Assembly: GCA_022953095.1 (NCBI GenBank)
Contig: JALJCR010000003.1
Location: forward strand, 124,001 to 188,000
DNA from: Qipengyuania sp. ABI-127-1
Lineage (GTDB): Bacteria; Pseudomonadota; Alphaproteobacteria; Sphingomonadales; Sphingomonadaceae
Length of the DNA stretch: 64,000 nt
Direction of reading: 5' to 3'
The position numbers were made by a program, and so were the translations under genes. Positions 51,981-58,869 of the stretch are shown one piece after another. The first letter of the stretch is position 1; each line of letters begins with the position of its first letter. The notes beneath the pieces were generated by a model, which saw nothing but the letters and a program-made list of their open reading frames with translations, did not search any database and had not been told where the DNA came from.

Positions 51981-52532
51981 ATGGCGATCGGAAAACTCAA
52001 ACTGATATGCTCAGGCACAATCCTGATCGCAGGTTTATCGGCTTGCGCGACTATCTCGGAAAAAAGCTGCGCCTATGACGCATGGTATGATGTGGGTTTT
52101 CGCGGAGCGATGGCCAATCACGATCGAGCGGACTATCTCGACGACATCTTCAAAGACTGCGGTAAGCACGGTTTCGAACCAAATATCGCCGAATTGCAAC
52201 GTGGTTTTGCAGATGGGACGGAGCGCTTTTGCGAGCCCGATAACGGGTTTGCCTGGGGGCGCGCCGGACACGGCTATAACGGGATCTGCCGCTCGCCCGA
52301 ATTTTCCAATGCCTATGCGGAAGGCTACCACATCTATGAAATCGAGACACGCCGATCGGCGATTGTCTCGCGCCTGTCCTCGATCCGGTCCGAACTGGAA
52401 AAGCTGGAGAAGACGCTGGACGAGGATGAACTAACCGAAAAAGAACAACGCAAGGCCCGGCGCAAATACGACAAGCTTCGGCGCGAACGCAAGGATCTCA
52501 GGCGTGAGCTCGAGGCTCTGCCCTTTGTCTGA
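51981..52532 (+). CDS. DUF2799 lipoprotein
   Basis: A 183-residue lipoprotein (lipobox GLSAC). The DUF2799 pattern is seen as DWYDVGFRGA-like WYDVGFRGAMA, GRAGHGYNGICRSPEFSNAYAEGY and paired Cys residues. The C-terminal 60 residues form a charged coiled coil (SELEKLEKTLDEDELTEKEQ, KYDKLRRERKDLRRELE). Base composition is somewhat lower in GC than the flanks. Role in the envelope unknown. Ends convergently with nrsF. Confidence 0.85.
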   Translation: MAIGKLKLICSGTILIAGLSACATISEKSCAYDAWYDVGFRGAMANHDRADYLDDIFKDCGKHGFEPNIAELQRGFADGTERFCEPDNGFAWGRAGHGYNGICRSPEFSNAYAEGYHIYEIETRRSAIVSRLSSIRSELEKLEKTLDEDELTEKEQRKARRKYDKLRRERKDLRRELEALPFV

Positions 52533-52559: not shown

Positions 52560-53201
52560 TTACCAACGCACCAGCGGCGGGACGGCGAAGCGCCCGACAA
52601 GCGCGCCGAGAGCCACCGGCAAGGCATGCCAGGTGCCAAGGTGGGCCAGCGTGTCGATCGGGCAGGCCAGGCCATAGGCGAAGCTTCCCAGCGCGCCCGC
52701 CGCGATGCCGGTAAAGGTCCCGGCAAGCGTGGTCGAGACCGGTGCTCCGCGCCGCAGCCAGCCGACCAGCGCGGCAAAGGTCAGCACGCTAAAGGCCGAA
52801 CCGGCGAGGAAACAGTCCAGCCCATAAGGATCGTGCGTGACTTCGTGCAGATCGCCATGAAAGCCGAGCGTCACCAGCGCCGCAACCGGCAGCACCGCGA
52901 ACATCGCCAGTGACCAGCGCGCGCCGTCATGGCTGTTGCCGACGCGCGGTCCGGCCATGCGCACCACGGCCAACGCCGTTGCCACACCGAGCAGGCCCAG
53001 CATCCCATTGACGATGAAGAAAAACGCCGATGCGTGGCCCGACAGAACGCCGCGCCATAGCCCATCGAGCAGTTCGACGGCGAGGATCGTGCCGACGACG
53101 GCCAGTGCCACCAGCACAATACCGTGCATCAGCTTCATCGGCTGGACTGGCGACAGATCGGTCGCGAGCTCGTCGATCAGGGAATTGGGAACCCGGTTCA
53201 T
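52560..53201 (-). CDS. nrsF: NrsF-type membrane anti-sigma factor (DUF1109)
   Basis: A 213-residue protein with six membrane segments. Two cysteines, Cys130 (PYGLDCFLAG) and Cys180 (YGLACPIDT), are in the positions known in Caulobacter NrsF for sensing heavy metal or oxidant (from recall of that system). It begins 1 bp after the sigF stop, so the pair is co-expressed. It should hold SigF at the membrane until thiol modification releases it. Confidence 0.9.
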   Translation of the reverse strand: MNRVPNSLIDELATDLSPVQPMKLMHGIVLVALAVVGTILAVELLDGLWRGVLSGHASAFFFIVNGMLGLLGVATALAVVRMAGPRVGNSHDGARWSLAMFAVLPVAALVTLGFHGDLHEVTHDPYGLDCFLAGSAFSVLTFAALVGWLRRGAPVSTTLAGTFTGIAAGALGSFAYGLACPIDTLAHLGTWHALPVALGALVGRFAVPPLVRW

Positions 53202-53202
53202 G

Positions 53203-53733
53203 TCAGTCTGCTTTCTCTACGAGCGCGGACAGCTTCTTCAATCCGCGATGAATGTTTACCTTGACCAGGCTTTCGCTCTGGCCGGTCTTGGCCGAGGCTT
53301 CGGCGATCGACAGCCCTTCGATCTTGACCAGTTCGATCACTTCGCTCTGCTTGTCCGGCAGGTGAACGAACAACCGTTCCAGGCTCATCCGGGCCATCAC
53401 CGCCTCTTCGTCGCTGTCTTCGGCAGCGTCGTGGTCGCCCAGTTCGTCTTCCGCCTTGCGATAGACCTTGCGCAAGTGATCGACCCAGCGATAGCGCGCG
53501 ATCGCCGCCAGCCAGGGCAGGAAGGCGCGGGTCGGGTCCCAGGTCGCGCGCTTGGCGTGTACGGCCATCATCACTTCCTGAACCAGATCGTCGAGCTGCG
53601 CCGGGGCGACCCGGCGGCGGAAATAGCGTTCGAGCCACAGCTGGATTTCGGCGAGGAGCACGCGATAGGCGCTGGCATCGCCCTTTTGCGAGGCGGCCAT
53701 CAGCTGCGCAAGGCTGGCTTCGTCGGCGATCAT
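53203..53733 (-). CDS. sigF: ECF RNA polymerase sigma factor, SigF type (ECF16)
   Basis: A 176-residue sigma factor. Region 2 shows DDLVQEVMMAVHAKRATWDPTRAFLPWLAAIARYRWVDHLR with the DLVQE and W-L--IARN-like motifs. Region 4 is LPDKQSEVIELVKIEGLSIAEASAKTGQSESLVKVNIHRGLKKL. The Asp-Pro-x-R-x-F-x-x-W and K-V-N-I-H-R signatures fit the SigF/NrsF class. AGAAGGA lies four bases before the ATG. Order on this strand is bufA1-like, doxX, sigF, nrsF, so the sigma factor lies inside its own probable target operon. Confidence 0.92.
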   Translation of the reverse strand: MIADEASLAQLMAASQKGDASAYRVLLAEIQLWLERYFRRRVAPAQLDDLVQEVMMAVHAKRATWDPTRAFLPWLAAIARYRWVDHLRKVYRKAEDELGDHDAAEDSDEEAVMARMSLERLFVHLPDKQSEVIELVKIEGLSIAEASAKTGQSESLVKVNIHRGLKKLSALVEKAD

Positions 53734-53763
53734 CGCGTCCTTCTCCCCTCGATCCGCAGGCTA

Positions 53764-54222
53764 TCAGCTGGCGCGGCGCGAGGCGAGCAGCGCGTCGAGC
53801 GAGAACAGGCCTCCCCCGCGCGATACCAGCACTGCCGCCATGGCGACCCACACGATATGCGTTTGCCACCATGCTTCGGGATAGACGAAGATCTGGATCA
53901 CCAGCGTCATCACCAGCAGCGCCAGCGCCGAGAACCGCGAAAAAAAGCCGAGCACCAGCAGGATGGGGAAGAGGTGCTCGGCATAGGTGGCCATCGGGGT
54001 CGCGATGGCCGGGGGGATGGGCAGATCCGAATATTCATATTCGAACAGGAAATAGGCCTGGTCGCTGATCGAGAGCAGCGAACCGTCCTCGACCTTGGTG
54101 CGGCCCGAGCGCCAGAAGATCCCGGCGAGCGCCACACGGGTAAGCAGCAGCGCCAGCCCTTCCGGCACGCGCGAAGCGAGCCATGCGGCAAGGTGATCGT
54201 AGCGGGCTAGTAGCGTCTGCAT
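53764..54222 (-). CDS. DoxX-family membrane protein
   Basis: A 152-residue protein with four membrane segments. LLLTRVALAGIFWRSGRTKV is the DoxX N-terminal signature, and PFWLLLGLAT-like FPILLVLGFFSRFSALALLVMTLVIQIF the middle. DoxX proteins recur in bufferin operons (BufD position, from recall); the role is unclear. It lies between the four-Cys peptide gene and sigF, 30 bp from each. Confidence 0.88.
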   Translation of the reverse strand: MQTLLARYDHLAAWLASRVPEGLALLLTRVALAGIFWRSGRTKVEDGSLLSISDQAYFLFEYEYSDLPIPPAIATPMATYAEHLFPILLVLGFFSRFSALALLVMTLVIQIFVYPEAWWQTHIVWVAMAAVLVSRGGGLFSLDALLASRRAS

Positions 54223-54254
54223 GGCTTACCTCGTGTGGCTGGGAGCGGGATCGG

Positions 54255-54542
54255 TCAGCGCTTGATGGCGGTCAGCGAACCCTTGCCCTTGGGTGTGGAG
54301 ATCTTCTCGCAACTGCCCTTGGGGACGAGCTTCCAGGCATTGCCCTGGTAATCGCGGGTGGAGGTTCCGGCGCAGCTGGTGCCAGGTCCTGCGGCGCAAT
54401 CGTTTTCGCCAGCCTTGGCGACGCCGTAGCATTTTTCCATCGCGGGTTTCTTCTGCGCGGCGGCTGGGGTGGCGGCAAGACCGGCGGCGACGCTGGCGGA
54501 CAGCGCCATACCGGCGAGACGGGCAATCGATTGGGTGTTCAT
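54255..54542 (-). CDS. BufA1-like bufferin precursor (DUF2282), four Cys
   Basis: A 95-residue exported peptide. The signal peptide is cleaved near AATPAAAQ. The mature part carries four cysteines, Cys38, Cys49, Cys57 and Cys78, in the contexts [23 protein letters not shown] and PKGSCEK. This is the DUF2282/BufA1 pattern, a ribosomal peptide modified by an MNIO enzyme to bind copper (family knowledge). ATG at 54542 follows GAGAGAGAT; the frame to 54629 runs through the promoter. First gene of the arm that contains doxX, sigF and nrsF. Confidence 0.88.
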
Positions 54543-54609
54543 ATCGGTATCTCTCTCGAAAACTTCATCTGGGGGGCGCCCCGGCACGAACGCCGGAACT
54601 GGCCTGTCA

Positions 54610-54635
54610 TTCGGGCGGGTGCCGGGCATCGTTAC
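54610..54635 (-). promoter_or_regulatory. SigF-type promoter, minus arm
   Basis: On the minus strand GTAACG (54635-54630), exactly 16 bp, then CGAA (54613-54610). This matches the SigF consensus GTAACC-N16-CGAA known from Caulobacter except for the last -35 base. It lies 68 bp before the ATG of the four-Cys peptide. Confidence 0.75.
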
Positions 54636-54660
54636 AGCGCGACGAAAAAATTCCGGCGGT

Positions 54661-54686
54661 GTAACCGGCGCGGGCCAGCGCGCGAA
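54661..54686 (+). promoter_or_regulatory. SigF-type promoter, plus arm
   Basis: GTAACC (54661-54666), exactly 16 bp, then CGAA (54683-54686), a full match to the SigF consensus. It lies 52 bp before the ATG of the six-Cys peptide and 25 bp from the divergent SigF promoter. Confidence 0.8.
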
Positions 54687-54738
54687 CGACCCCCGTGTGC
54701 GCAGTCCCGCGCATCACGATCAAAAGGGATCACGTCCA

Positions 54739-55023
54739 ATGACCGCCATTCGCAAACCCGCCGCCGCAGCCGCCGCCGCAGCCTTCGCGCTTTCCTCCAT
54801 GGCTGCTTTCGCTGCCGAACCGCCCGCGGGCAGCACCGGCCGCGCGCTCGGTGCGGAAGACACCGTCCATTGCTACGGCGTGCATTCGTGCAAGGGTCAG
54901 GCCGACTGCGCGACCACCGAGAATGCCTGCAAGGGCCAGAACGACTGCAAGGGTCACGGCTTCAAGGCGATGAAGGCGGGTGACTGCCTCGCCAAGGGCG
55001 GCACGATCGGCGACCTCGGCTGA
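54739..55023 (+). CDS. BufA2-like bufferin precursor, six Cys
   Basis: A 94-residue exported peptide with an Ala-rich signal peptide ending at AAFAAEP. Six cysteines, Cys45, Cys51, Cys57, Cys64, Cys70 and Cys83, have the spacing C-x5-C-x5-C-x6-C-x5-C-x12-C with repeated CKGQ, as in HSCKGQADC and NACKGQNDCKGHG. This is the BufA2 pattern. In studied bufferins such Cys become thiooxazole-type metal ligands. ATG at 54739 lies behind AAAAGGG. Followed at 80 bp by the MNIO maturase gene. Confidence 0.9.
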   Translation: MTAIRKPAAAAAAAAFALSSMAAFAAEPPAGSTGRALGAEDTVHCYGVHSCKGQADCATTENACKGQNDCKGHGFKAMKAGDCLAKGGTIGDLG

Positions 55024-55103
55024 TCCGTCTCCCGGCGGCCCGGCCAACCCCTATCCTCCTCCGGTCCGCCGGGCCGCAACCTCCTTCTCGTAACGGAGTC
55101 ACA

Positions 55104-55940
55104 ATGAGCGCGATCGCCCCCTTTCACGGTTTCGGCCTCGGCCTCAGGCGCACCCACTACGCCGACTTCCTCGAGGGCGAGGTCGATGTCGATTTCGTCG
55201 AGGTCATTTCCGAAAACTACATGGTCGAGGGCGGCAAGCCTTTGCGCGTGCTCGAACAGGTGCGCGAAAAGCACCCGGTGATCCTTCACGGCGTGTCGAT
55301 GTCGATCGGGTCCGCGCAAGGGTTGGATGAAGATCACCTCTCGCAGCTGCGCGGGCTGGCCGACCGGATCGATCCGCTGTGGGTGTCCGACCATCTGTGC
55401 TGGACCCGCACCAGTGCGCACAACAGCCACGACCTCCTGCCGCTGCCGCTGACGCGCGAGGCGCTCGACGCGGTCTGTGCCAATATCGACCGCGCGCAGG
55501 ACGCGCTTGGGCGGCCGATGTTGTTCGAAAATCCGTCGAGCTATCTGACCTTTCCCGAAGACGAGATGGCCGAATGGGAATTCCTGTCGGAGATGGCGCA
55601 GCGGACGGGATGCTACCTGCTGCTCGACATCAACAATGTCTATGTGAGCGCGCATAATCACGGGTTTTCGGCGCGCGACTACATCGCCGGGCTCCCGCTC
55701 GACCGGGTGCGCCAGATCCATTTGGCAGGGCACGAACCGGGCGAGATCATCATCGACACGCACGACCGCGCGGTGAGCGGCGGCGTGTGGGAGCTTTATG
55801 CGGATACGATCGCGCAGCTCGGGCCGGTCGCGACGATGATCGAGCGCGACGACAAGATCCCGCCGCTGGCCGAGTTGCTCGCCGAACTCGAGCTCGCGCG
55901 ATCGCTGGGGCGGGGCAATGCGGGGGCCATCGCAGCATGA
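55104..55940 (+). CDS. bufB: MNIO-family (DUF692) bufferin maturase
   Basis: A 278-residue multinuclear non-haem iron oxidative enzyme with a TIM-barrel fold. Metal-site residues are visible in order: FVEVISENYM, VILHGVSMSIG, WVSDHLCW, MLFENPSSYL, LLLDINNVYVSA, QIHLAGHEPG, DTHDRAV and MIERDDKIP. The family oxidises Cys of the partner peptide to form heterocycles. It directly follows the six-Cys precursor. The stop overlaps the ATG of the DUF2063 gene, so the two are coupled. Confidence 0.93.
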   Translation: MSAIAPFHGFGLGLRRTHYADFLEGEVDVDFVEVISENYMVEGGKPLRVLEQVREKHPVILHGVSMSIGSAQGLDEDHLSQLRGLADRIDPLWVSDHLCWTRTSAHNSHDLLPLPLTREALDAVCANIDRAQDALGRPMLFENPSSYLTFPEDEMAEWEFLSEMAQRTGCYLLLDINNVYVSAHNHGFSARDYIAGLPLDRVRQIHLAGHEPGEIIIDTHDRAVSGGVWELYADTIAQLGPVATMIERDDKIPPLAELLAELELARSLGRGNAGAIAA

Positions 55941-56779
55941 CCGGCCTTGCCCAGCGACAGGCGGCCTTTCTCGGCGCGATTCTTGACGATGAGGCACCTT
56001 TGCCAACGGGCTGGGGCGACGAACGCGCGCCGGGTCTCGCGATTTATCGCAACAATTACCGCACGTCGTTGATGGAAGCGCTACGCTCGACCTTCGAGAG
56101 GACCGAGCGGCTTGTCGGCGAGGATGCGTTCCGCCGCGCCGCCGCGCATCACTGCATCATGCATCCCCCGCGAAGCTGGACTCTCGACCTCGTCGGGAAG
56201 GGCTTTCCCGAAACCTGCACCGAGCTTTTCACACACGATCCCGACGTGGCCGAACTGGCTGCGCTCGAATGGGCGATGCACGAGGCATTTGTCGCACGGA
56301 ACACAAAACCGCTGACCACCGCCGGATTCGGGGAGGCCTGCGCCAAATTCACCGAAGGCGACTGGGAAGACCTCACATTAACCTTGGTGCCCGATCTGCG
56401 CGTGGTTGGCGCAAGCCATGATCTCGTTCGCCTCTGGTCTTCCCTTGCTGCGGATAGGGCGAAACCGGATGTGGTCCCGTGCGGAGAGGCGCAATGTGCG
56501 ATCGTCTGGCGCGAGGGCGAACGACCCGTCTTCGCTCTTCGGCCGGCATGGGAAGGCGCGGCACTGGACGCGTTTCAGAGGGGCGCGACATTCGGCGCGG
56601 TTTGCGCGGCGCTGATCGAAACGCTGGGCGAAGAAGCGGCAATCGCCGAAGCCGGTGCGATGCTGGCCCGATGGGTCGGCGAAGGGCTGGTCGAAAAACT
56701 GGCTCAGGGGGTAGTGGCGTCGCCCGCCGTTACCCCGCTCTCGCCCTTCGCGTCCGACTCGTCCTTGTCGGTCCGGTAA
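55937..56779 (+). CDS. bufC: DUF2063 protein, bufferin maturation partner
   Basis: A 280-residue protein. The N-terminal DUF2063 domain shows LAQRQAAFLGAIL, GLAIYRNNYRTSLMEALRSTFERTERLVGEDAFRRAA and HPPRSWTLDLVGKGFPE. A second, looser domain follows with AELAALEWAMHEAF and ends in a winged-helix-like part. It recruits or presents the precursor to the MNIO enzyme in related systems. ATG at 55937 overlaps bufB. The last 76 bp overlap the convergent peptidase gene. Confidence 0.9.
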   Translation: MTGLAQRQAAFLGAILDDEAPLPTGWGDERAPGLAIYRNNYRTSLMEALRSTFERTERLVGEDAFRRAAAHHCIMHPPRSWTLDLVGKGFPETCTELFTHDPDVAELAALEWAMHEAFVARNTKPLTTAGFGEACAKFTEGDWEDLTLTLVPDLRVVGASHDLVRLWSSLAADRAKPDVVPCGEAQCAIVWREGERPVFALRPAWEGAALDAFQRGATFGAVCAALIETLGEEAAIAEAGAMLARWVGEGLVEKLAQGVVASPAVTPLSPFASDSSLSVR

Positions 56780-58791
56780 CGGTCGAACCAGGCGAGGATG
56801 TTCTCGGTTTTGGCAATCAGGCGCGATGGCCGCGCGGCAATGCCATGCGAACTGCCCGGAACGCGAATGAGCATTGTGTCGACGCCGCGCAATTTCAAGG
56901 CCTGGTAGAACTGCTCGCTCTCCGTGATCGGTGTGCGGTGGTCCTCTTCGCCGGTCAGCAGCATGGTCGGCGTGGTGACATTGCCGACCAGGCTCAGTGG
57001 CGAGCGTTTCCAGTAATGCATCGGGTCCTCCCATGGGAGGACGGGGAACTGATGATGCGTCTGGAAAATATAGCTGTCTGCCGTCAGCGTCTTCGATAGC
57101 CAGTTGATCACCGGCTTGGCCGCCACCGCCGCATTGAAACGATCGGTCAGCCCGACGAGATAGGCGGTGGCGATCCCGCCTGCCGAACCGCCGGTGACGA
57201 AGAGATTGTCCTCGTCGATAAAGCCCTTCGCGATCATCGCATCGACGCCCGACATGTGATCGGCGGCGTCCTCCTCGCTCGAATATTTGTGCTCGAGCAG
57301 CAAAGCGAAATCCTCGCCATAGGAGGTCGAACCGCGATGGTTGTCGTAGAAGACGACGTAGCCCTCGGCGGCATACCGCTGCACCTCGGCGCTGAAATGC
57401 GGGCCATAGGCGGCATGGGGGCCGCCGTGGATCTCAAGGATCAGCGGGTATTTCTTCCCCGGGTCGAAGCCGGGCGGCGTGACGTACCAGCCCTGGATCT
57501 CGGTGCCGTCGAAACTCGAATTATAGGTGATCTCGTGCACCTTGCCGAGCGTTCTGTGGGCGAGAACGTCCTCGTTCAGGGACGTAAGCTGGCGAGTGCG
57601 GTTGCCGCTGCGCACGGCGAGATCGGCGGGCCGCTGGCTGGTCCCCGCGGTCCAGGCCAGCGTGCCGTTTGCCGCCACATCGTAAGTGCCGCTTGTATAG
57701 GGACGCCCAAGAGTTGTGCCGCCGAGACCCTCCGCAACGGTTGTGACACGACCGTCCAGCGATACACGGCCGATCTTCTTCTCGCCGCGATCATCGAAGG
57801 TGACATAGATCGCGCGATTGCCGCCCCAGCGGATATCGCCGACCTCGCGATCGAGGCTTTGGGTGAGATTGCGCGCGCCGCTACCGTCGGCATTCTTCAC
57901 GCAGACGTCGATCTGCCACACCGGCCGCTTGACATTCGGCATGCAGACGAAAGCCACATGCGTGCCGTCGGGCGAAACTTGCGGGTTGCCTTCCGCCCCG
58001 CTGCCGGAAGTGAACTGGCTGAGCGCGCCGCTGCCGACATCGACCGTATAGATGTCGCTCTCGACCGTCTGCAGTTCCCAGCCCTCGTTGCGATTTGCGG
58101 AGAAATAAATGCTTCGGCCGTCGCGGCTCCACGATAGCGGTCCGTCGTGATCGAAATCGCCTTGGGTCAATTGGCGCGGCGTGCCGCCATTTGCGGGAAC
58201 CACGAAAATATGGCGGAAGGCCGGGTCGAGAAAGCCCTGGCCGTCGCGGCGGAACTGGGCGTGGTCGATCACCTTGACCGCGTCCGACCATTTGGCGCCT
58301 TCAGGCTTTTTCGGCATCTTAGCCAGCGGTTTGCGCTCGGCATCGACATTGCTGGTAAAGGCGATCCATTGCCCGTCGGGCGACCAGGCCAGGCTGCTCG
58401 CACCGCTGTCCAGACTTGCTACCTGCTGAACCTGTCCGCTGTCCATCCAGCGCGTGTAGATCGCGGCACGGTCGTTGGAGCCGCGCCCGGTATAGGCAAT
58501 GCGGCGACCATCGGGTGACCATTCGGCACGGCTTGCCCCTTCGACCACCAGGCGCGGTTCACCACCGGCCACGGGGACCATCCAGATCGCTCCCTCGGTC
58601 CGGTCGGACATGATGTCGTTCGAGCGGCGGACGAAGAGAACAGTGCGACCATCGGGCGATATCCTGGGGTCGTCGGCATATTCCAGCGCGAACACGTCCT
58701 CGGCGCTGAATGTCGTATCGTCCTGCGCCGCCAGCGGTCCCGCCGCGATCAGCGGTGCGGCCAACACCCATGCCCCGAAAAGGCTTCTCAT
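56704..58791 (-). CDS. S9-family prolyl-oligopeptidase-like peptidase
   Basis: A 695-residue exported peptidase. The signal peptide is LFGAWVLAAPLIAAGPLAAQ. A seven-bladed propeller of WD40/TolB-like repeats (ISPDGRTV, WSPDGRRIAY, WSPDGQWIAF, WSRDGRSIYF, VSPDGTHVAF) precedes the alpha/beta hydrolase domain. The catalytic triad is Ser536 (GGSAGG), Asp617 (GEEDHRTP) and His649 (PGSSHGI). GGAG and GAGG lie before the ATG at 58791. It probably removes dipeptides or small peptides in the periplasm. Confidence 0.93.
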   Translation of the reverse strand: MRSLFGAWVLAAPLIAAGPLAAQDDTTFSAEDVFALEYADDPRISPDGRTVLFVRRSNDIMSDRTEGAIWMVPVAGGEPRLVVEGASRAEWSPDGRRIAYTGRGSNDRAAIYTRWMDSGQVQQVASLDSGASSLAWSPDGQWIAFTSNVDAERKPLAKMPKKPEGAKWSDAVKVIDHAQFRRDGQGFLDPAFRHIFVVPANGGTPRQLTQGDFDHDGPLSWSRDGRSIYFSANRNEGWELQTVESDIYTVDVGSGALSQFTSGSGAEGNPQVSPDGTHVAFVCMPNVKRPVWQIDVCVKNADGSGARNLTQSLDREVGDIRWGGNRAIYVTFDDRGEKKIGRVSLDGRVTTVAEGLGGTTLGRPYTSGTYDVAANGTLAWTAGTSQRPADLAVRSGNRTRQLTSLNEDVLAHRTLGKVHEITYNSSFDGTEIQGWYVTPPGFDPGKKYPLILEIHGGPHAAYGPHFSAEVQRYAAEGYVVFYDNHRGSTSYGEDFALLLEHKYSSEEDAADHMSGVDAMIAKGFIDEDNLFVTGGSAGGIATAYLVGLTDRFNAAVAAKPVINWLSKTLTADSYIFQTHHQFPVLPWEDPMHYWKRSPLSLVGNVTTPTMLLTGEEDHRTPITESEQFYQALKLRGVDTMLIRVPGSSHGIAARPSRLIAKTENILAWFDRYRTDKDESDAKGESGVTAGDATTP

Positions 58792-58832
58792 CTGCCTCGT
58801 CTCCTTATTTCCCGGGATGCGGCGTAGCACAG

Positions 58833-58869
58833 AAAAAGGGGCACGGAAGATCAAATCCCGCACCCCTTT
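58833..58869 (-). terminator. Rho-independent terminator of the MscS-related gene
   Basis: On the minus strand AAAGGGGTGCGGGA and TTCCGTGCCCCTTT form a 14-bp stem (three G-U pairs) around a 7-nt loop, followed by five T. It starts 25 bp after the stop at 58894. Confidence 0.8.

Follow-up and report, generated by a model that had tools for sequence, protein, structure and literature searches.

Can one maturase pair serve two families of bufferin precursors? The question is raised by a divergent locus at positions 52560-56779 of a 64,000-nucleotide (nt) stretch of Qipengyuania sp. ABI-127-1 DNA (contig JALJCR010000003.1, positions 124,001 to 188,000; hereafter the window), in which a left arm, bufA1-doxX-sigF-nrsF on the minus strand, faces a right arm, bufA2-bufB-bufC, on the plus strand. 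A preliminary description drawn from this DNA alone had proposed the gene set and the two arms, and all seven genes were recovered at their positions. It had left three options for the four-cysteine precursor BufA1: modification by the single MNIO pair that would also act on the six-cysteine BufA2, modification by an enzyme elsewhere, or action in an unmodified form. The first is the best supported of the three, and we infer from comparisons among relatives that BufB-BufC probably modifies BufA1 as well as BufA2, in a putative sigma-F-controlled copper-bufferin locus.

A single maturase pair in the genome and its recurrence in the family

Profile searches over the whole genome (3.15 Mb, assembly 99.99% complete) returned one PF05114 (MNIO) gene and one PF09836 (DUF2063) gene, so that no second maturase pair is present in this assembly according to these two models. 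The DUF2282, BufA2 and NrsF genes also number one each; bufA2 scores right at the PF10048 (DUF2282) cut-off, and the genome-wide DUF2282 search does not report it. A genome search for a second DUF692/DUF2063 pair was the check suggested by the preliminary description, and the additional pair that it had named as counter-evidence did not appear. Within the reach of the assembly and of the PF05114 model, its option of an enzyme elsewhere is ruled out where MNIO-type enzymes are concerned. The presence of one MNIO and one DUF2063 gene in so complete a genome supports sharing of the pair.

The family sample comprised 149 genomes: DUF2282 matched in 46, an MNIO in 48 and BufA2, above the cut-off, in 30. 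Both precursors occur together in 28 genomes, and the single MNIO gene of 18 of these also supports sharing; the remaining 10 have two or three MNIO matches, including G018, whose two matches are partial and include one at a contig end. Within the genus of the window (27 sampled genomes), DUF2282 and MNIO were found together in 16 genomes, neither was found in 11, and just one of them in none. The layout of one pair with two precursors recurs in the family and is not a quirk of this genome; among named genomes, Qipengyuania supplies the best BufB matches.

To compare gene orders, 158 stretches were annotated (80 loci from a BufB search, 77 further stretches and the window) using profiles seeded with the window's proteins. 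Counts over these stretches are not a census, because the locus search gave its best 80 only, and some species are present in both sources. The order nrsF-sigF-doxX-bufA1 opposite bufA2-bufB-bufC was observed in 40 of the 158, the window counted. The 53 loci in which bufA1 faces bufA2-bufB-bufC (shared loci) yielded 48 distinct BufA1 sequences, and the four cysteines are all present in 52 of the 52 complete proteins. Related operons ordered A1-B1-C1-DoxX-SigF-NrsF occur in 12 of the 158 stretches, which means that bufB1-bufC1 may have been lost here and that the Buf1 arm could be a passenger, bufA1 being kept mainly as the head of the doxX-sigF-nrsF operon and for its promoter. We regard this as improbable, as such complete conservation of the BufA1 cysteines would be unexpected of a passenger.

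Relatives that lost bufA2

Nineteen loci, taken for the most part from Erythrobacter records, show bufA1-doxX-sigF-nrsF opposite bufB-bufC, and no bufA2 was found between the two arms. BufA2 was above the cut-off in 0 of these 19 genomes (one weaker match), and each of the 19 contains exactly one MNIO match. All four BufA1 cysteines are present at these loci, one sigma-F-type site points toward bufA1 and another toward bufB in 19/19, and the strongly conserved H/D/E/N positions of BufB are kept in 19/19 at all but one position and in 18/19 at that one. The simplest reading is that a Buf1 protein would be the substrate of these BufB enzymes. Sharing at the window locus is favoured because bufBC is kept facing bufA1 where bufA2 was not found, and is further supported by the invariance of the four cysteines in the complete shared-locus proteins and in these 19.

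When the interval separating bufA1 from bufB was scanned with a BufA2 profile, the best match on the bufB strand had an E-value of 0.063, and stronger matches fell on the bufA1 strand. A rough search near the bufBC genes of the bufA2-less loci for another Cys-rich exported peptide gave no candidate recurring in place among the matches listed. A BufA2 of the Qipengyuania type that had moved elsewhere should not escape detection, because family matches above the cut-off score at least 89.7 bits. Modification of BufA1 by another, undetected enzyme seems very improbable: further enzyme classes, none of which was searched for, could in principle modify cysteines, but there is no second PF05114 or PF09836 gene in the window's genome and no second PF05114 gene in the 19 bufA2-less genomes.

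Relatives without an MNIO gene

A DUF2282 match without an MNIO gene was found in five genomes, that is, in 2 of the 46 DUF2282 genomes of the family sample and in 3 of 165 in the order sample. The DUF2282 proteins of G051 and G128 have lost both central cysteines and retain the outer two, the central ones being those modified in Buf1 (PMC12452194). G323 and G349 carry a decayed DUF2282 gene with an in-frame stop, its C-terminal part gone. The fifth, G184, is a draft (93% complete) in which the four cysteines are intact and the contig breaks off ~210 bases beyond the match, at a place where a maturase gene could be situated. That four of the five genomes have either lost the central cysteines or carry a decayed gene favours sharing and, together with the bufA2-less loci, makes it unlikely that the four-cysteine peptide acts unmodified, as the preliminary description had also allowed.

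Descent and active site of BufB

For the phylogeny of BufB, 93 rows were picked from 142; the tree came from a short search and carries long-branch warnings. The enzymes of Buf1 operons (16) split from the rest (77; Buf2-only, shared and bufA2-less) at support 100, and the window BufB falls on the Buf2 side. The 18 bufA2-less rows included (L097 was left out) form one group, with support 79, nested among the shared-locus rows of the Buf2-type clade; in a quicker BufB tree, bufA2 loss requires two changes. A BufA1 tree was set aside, its 61 columns being too few to resolve it, and we claim no dated loss of bufB1-bufC1 because operon types are intermingled in the SigF tree.

Modelling has linked the residue that follows the catalytic Asp to the amino acids flanking the modified Cys, Asp going with Cys-Lys substrates (PMC12668002). 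The window BufB has Asp at this position, as do 40 of the 44 rows with bufA1 divergent from bufA2 (window counted) and 43 of the 44 Buf2-only rows. Among the 28 rows of enzymes that have a bufA1 of their own, 22 show Thr, Gly or Ser there and 3 show Asp. In BufB without a bufA2 partner the residue is not Asp in 7/19 rows, compared with 4/44 at bufA1-divergent-bufA2 loci, a drift (Fisher p 0.013, kinship ignored) that we do not rely on.

The divergent locus was also found in the gammaproteobacterium Luteimonas kalidii (L100). Horizontal transfer is likely in this case, because its BufB is placed among Sphingomonadales rows in the tree; its sigF match lies on the opposite strand behind bufC, and its NrsF match is split over two frames.

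A probable history is that bufB1-bufC1 were lost from the Buf1 arm of a complete divergent operon pair such as that of Caulobacter sp. S45 or Asticcacaulis, and that bufA2 was later lost in the Erythrobacter branch, after which Buf1 was the only partner left to the former Buf2 maturase. We lean toward a broader reading of this history, in which a Buf2-type MNIO pair natively matures two precursor families and was captured by Buf1 alone in the Erythrobacter branch after the loss of bufA2; this would be a switch of substrate family via a promiscuous intermediate, under one self-amplifying sigma factor.

Evidence against a shared maturase

Several observations weigh against BufA1 being a substrate of this pair. 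By its tree position and the Asp residue BufB is of Buf2 type, whereas the central cysteines of BufA1 precede Ala, not Lys; the leaders of BufA1 and BufA2, compared by eye, are dissimilar; and MNIOs can be selective, because FonBC left some foreign motifs unprocessed (PMC12668002). The 19 bufA2-less loci stand for one or two losses of bufA2 and not for 19 separate ones, because the bufA2-less enzymes form one group in the fuller tree and require two changes in the quicker one. Two of the bufA2-less genomes, G041 and G121, have a second, lipoprotein-like DUF2282 gene (the search for further DUF2282 genes covered no others of the 19), and there either or both of the DUF2282 proteins could be the substrate. 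The bufA2-less genomes could also contain, at another place, a distant BufA2 that was missed, because the BufA2 model misses the control genome Caulobacter vibrioides, which has Buf2 according to the literature. As for the five MNIO-free genomes, G051 and G128 belong to one genus, G323 and G349 are near copies whose decayed gene still shows the central Cys codons, and G184 keeps all four cysteines.

The enzyme type and the unlike leaders would fit a BufBC that acts on BufA2 only, with BufA1 exported unmodified as a thiol/disulfide metal binder or as a stress sensor of the sigma-F circuit, and PMC12452194 allows that some precursors stay unmodified. We nevertheless consider this unlikely, as bufBC is retained opposite bufA1 in the 19 genomes where bufA2 was not found, and the central cysteines, invariant in complete shared-locus BufA1, are lost in 2 of the 5 MNIO-free genomes.

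Sigma-F-type sites and a model for the locus

The window contains two exact GTAACS-N16-CGAA sites, both between the arms (Table 1); the one facing bufA2 matches GTAACC-N16-CGAA exactly, and the one facing bufA1 has G as its sixth base. Relatives were scanned for GTAAC-N15to19-CG(A/T)A up to 300 nt upstream, with expectations taken from single-letter shuffles; the spacer-17 pattern includes the Caulobacter form GTAACC-N16-CGAA (PMC3511200). Sites were found upstream of 104 of 127 bufA1 genes (spacer 17 in 104/104; 0.6 expected) and 72 of 94 bufA2 genes (spacer 17 in 70/72; 0.6 expected), and both divergent sites are present in 53/53 shared loci.

An attempt to define a genome-wide sigma-F regulon was abandoned: the motif alone is uninformative outside the locus, because its 12 exact genome-wide matches are no enrichment over the 18 of a backward control. 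Allowing one mismatch brings the matches in the window to 12, against an expectation of 4.58 and with 2 in 100 shuffles reaching that number; of these matches only the two exact sites were used. Scans of sigma-70 promoters and terminators gave nothing useful.

The two-cysteine anti-sigma factor of the preliminary description was confirmed, Cys130 and Cys180 of NrsF each being kept in 99 of 100 aligned rows (relatives and window). In Caulobacter, release of SigF via the NrsF cysteines was proposed from Cys mutants and the movement of SigF to the cytoplasm (PMC3511200). At the window locus, stress may act on these cysteines and free SigF, upon which both divergent promoters would fire. The left arm would then yield BufA1, DoxX and further SigF and NrsF, and the right arm BufA2 with its maturase. 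BufB-BufC would modify the cysteines of both precursors before export, to thiooxazoles if the family is a guide, and the exported products, candidate captophorins (5-thiooxazole peptides), might hold surplus periplasmic copper, the role described for bufferins (PMC12452194). Self-amplification of sigF fits this arrangement, because sigF follows bufA1 and doxX in a tightly spaced operon with a sigma-F-type site ahead of bufA1. Strong auto-regulation was not seen for the Caulobacter sigF, which belongs to a separate sigF-nrsF operon (PMC3511200).

Features of the locus

Table 1 Genes and sigma-F-type sites of the divergent bufferin locus (window positions).
Feature	Position	Strand	Evidence
nrsF (membrane anti-sigma factor)	52560..53201	-	PF06532 135.2 bits, cut-off 26.8
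sigF (extracytoplasmic function (ECF) sigma factor)	53203..53733	-	Sigma70_r2 and r4_2 above cut-off
doxX (DoxX-family membrane protein)	53764..54222	-	PF07681 61.4 bits, cut-off 23.6
bufA1 (four-Cys Buf1 precursor)	54255..54542	-	PF10048 (DUF2282) 92.7 bits, cut-off 22.4
sigma-F-type site facing bufA1, GTAAC-N17-CGAA (GTAACG form)	54610..54635	-	exact GTAACS-N16-CGAA
sigma-F-type site facing bufA2, GTAAC-N17-CGAA (GTAACC form)	54661..54686	+	exact GTAACS-N16-CGAA; starts 78 nt before ATG
bufA2 (six-Cys Buf2 precursor)	54739..55023	+	NF050166 (NCBIfam BufA2) 102.2 bits, cut-off 60
bufB (MNIO/DUF692 maturase, Buf2-type clade)	55104..55940	+	PF05114 366.3 bits, cut-off 25
bufC (DUF2063 and RRE-like partner; RRE, RiPP recognition element)	55937..56779	+	PF09836 72.1 bits, cut-off 27.2

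The minus-arm genes are separated by 32 nt (bufA1/doxX), 30 nt (doxX/sigF) and 1 nt (sigF/nrsF); on the plus arm, bufA2 and bufB are 80 nt apart and bufB and bufC overlap by 4 nt. The earlier assignment of a four-Cys BufA1-like and a six-Cys BufA2-like peptide agrees with the profile scores of Table 1 and with the Cys counts. The four cysteines of BufA1 are conserved in relatives, as expected of a Buf1 precursor, and its hydrophobic N-terminus ends in Ala-Ala-Ala (judged by eye), a candidate Sec signal. Among 88 distinct BufA2 sequences, five Cys columns are kept in 88/88 and one in 87/88.

BufB exceeds the cut-off of NF050167 (NCBIfam MNIO_BufB; 382.6 bits, cut-off 310) and carries every H/D/E/N position conserved in >95% of the 142 BufB rows, among which the metal-binding and catalytic residues may lie. 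The fold of BufC was predicted because a search of the PDB by sequence gave no relative. The model (mean predicted local distance difference test score, pLDDT, 92.2) was moderately similar in Foldseek to TglHI (8hi7_A; E 3.1e-05, template modelling (TM) scores 0.53/0.55) and NGO1945 (3dee; E 5.2e-04, TM 0.50/0.66), and this predicted fold is what is expected of a DUF2063-RRE (PME-type 1) partner.

SigF is 92% identical to the copy of Qipengyuania flava (L068). DoxX scores 52.7 bits against the NCBIfam model HvfX, under its cut-off of 80, and NrsF 42.4 bits against the equivalog model NF042994 (NCBIfam; cut-off 300), making NrsF a family member and not a strict equivalog. Directly past nrsF and convergent with it lies a DUF2799 family protein (59.9 bits; window 51981-52532), and the 3' end of bufC overlaps a convergent S9 peptidase gene (56704-58863, minus strand) by 76 bases (window 56704-56779).

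Other DUF2282 and MNIO genes were encountered among the relatives. Ten DUF2282 genes away from any MNIO gene (L206, L215, L224, L226, L239, L248, L250, L253, L257 and L266) have a lipoprotein-like leader (by eye), and one or two MNIO genes are present elsewhere in their genomes. An MNIO gene of a third kind (L209, L213 and L263, from G016, G023 and G120) follows a 12-Cys open frame, 237-274 residues long, with a CMGLNSCK motif and no evident signal peptide. Finally, upstream of a distant MNIO (L234, G052) lies a peptide that bears GGKCASGKCG and DGKCG motifs, resembling the EGKCG class.

Comparison with known systems

Genomes with several bufferin-like precursors and one MNIO plus one PME-type 1 gene have already been remarked on in the field survey PMC12452194, in general terms, and its Discussion leaves open whether one pair modifies all precursors. 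The window locus, with its multiple precursors and single pair, and its bufA2-less relatives offer a ready test of this question, one enzyme clade accompanying two precursor families in the former and Buf1 alone in the latter. Should sharing prove true, substrate recognition would have to tolerate unlike leaders and Cys contexts, which bears on designed copper-binding peptides and on how enzymes of ribosomally synthesized and post-translationally modified peptides (RiPPs) change substrates.

In the main text of PMC12452194, a word search gave no Sphingomonad- or Erythrobacter- word, and "divergent" in one reference title only. Among the literature matches listed, no title concerned this locus, most subscription papers and all supplements being out of reach. 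We regard the layout as a variant of a known system and believe the comparative test of sharing to be its new part.

The preliminary description had pointed to Caulobacter, where every precursor comes with DUF692 and DUF2063 genes of its own, and Table 1 of PMC3511200 bears this out. The sigma-F regulon of Caulobacter vibrioides (CC3254-3257, CC2907-2905 and sigF-nrsF) consists of the same gene families as the window locus, and both systems have the promoter form GTAACC-N16-CGAA and a two-Cys NrsF, both bufferin operons being under sigma-F in Caulobacter (PMC3511200). However, each precursor there has its own maturase pair in a separate operon and sigF-nrsF forms an operon of its own (PMC3511200), whereas the window has one pair in one divergent locus, with sigF downstream of bufA1-doxX. 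The text of PMC12452194 places sigma and NrsF genes in Buf1 clusters and not in Buf2 clusters, while in the window sigF and nrsF share a locus with the Buf2 set. The bufA1 arm is likewise divergent from bufA2-bufB-bufC in Caulobacter sp. S45 (L105), Asticcacaulis (L117), a Sphingomonas metagenome-assembled genome (L114) and G020 (L211), but all four retain on the Buf1 arm the bufB1-bufC1 genes that the window locus lacks.

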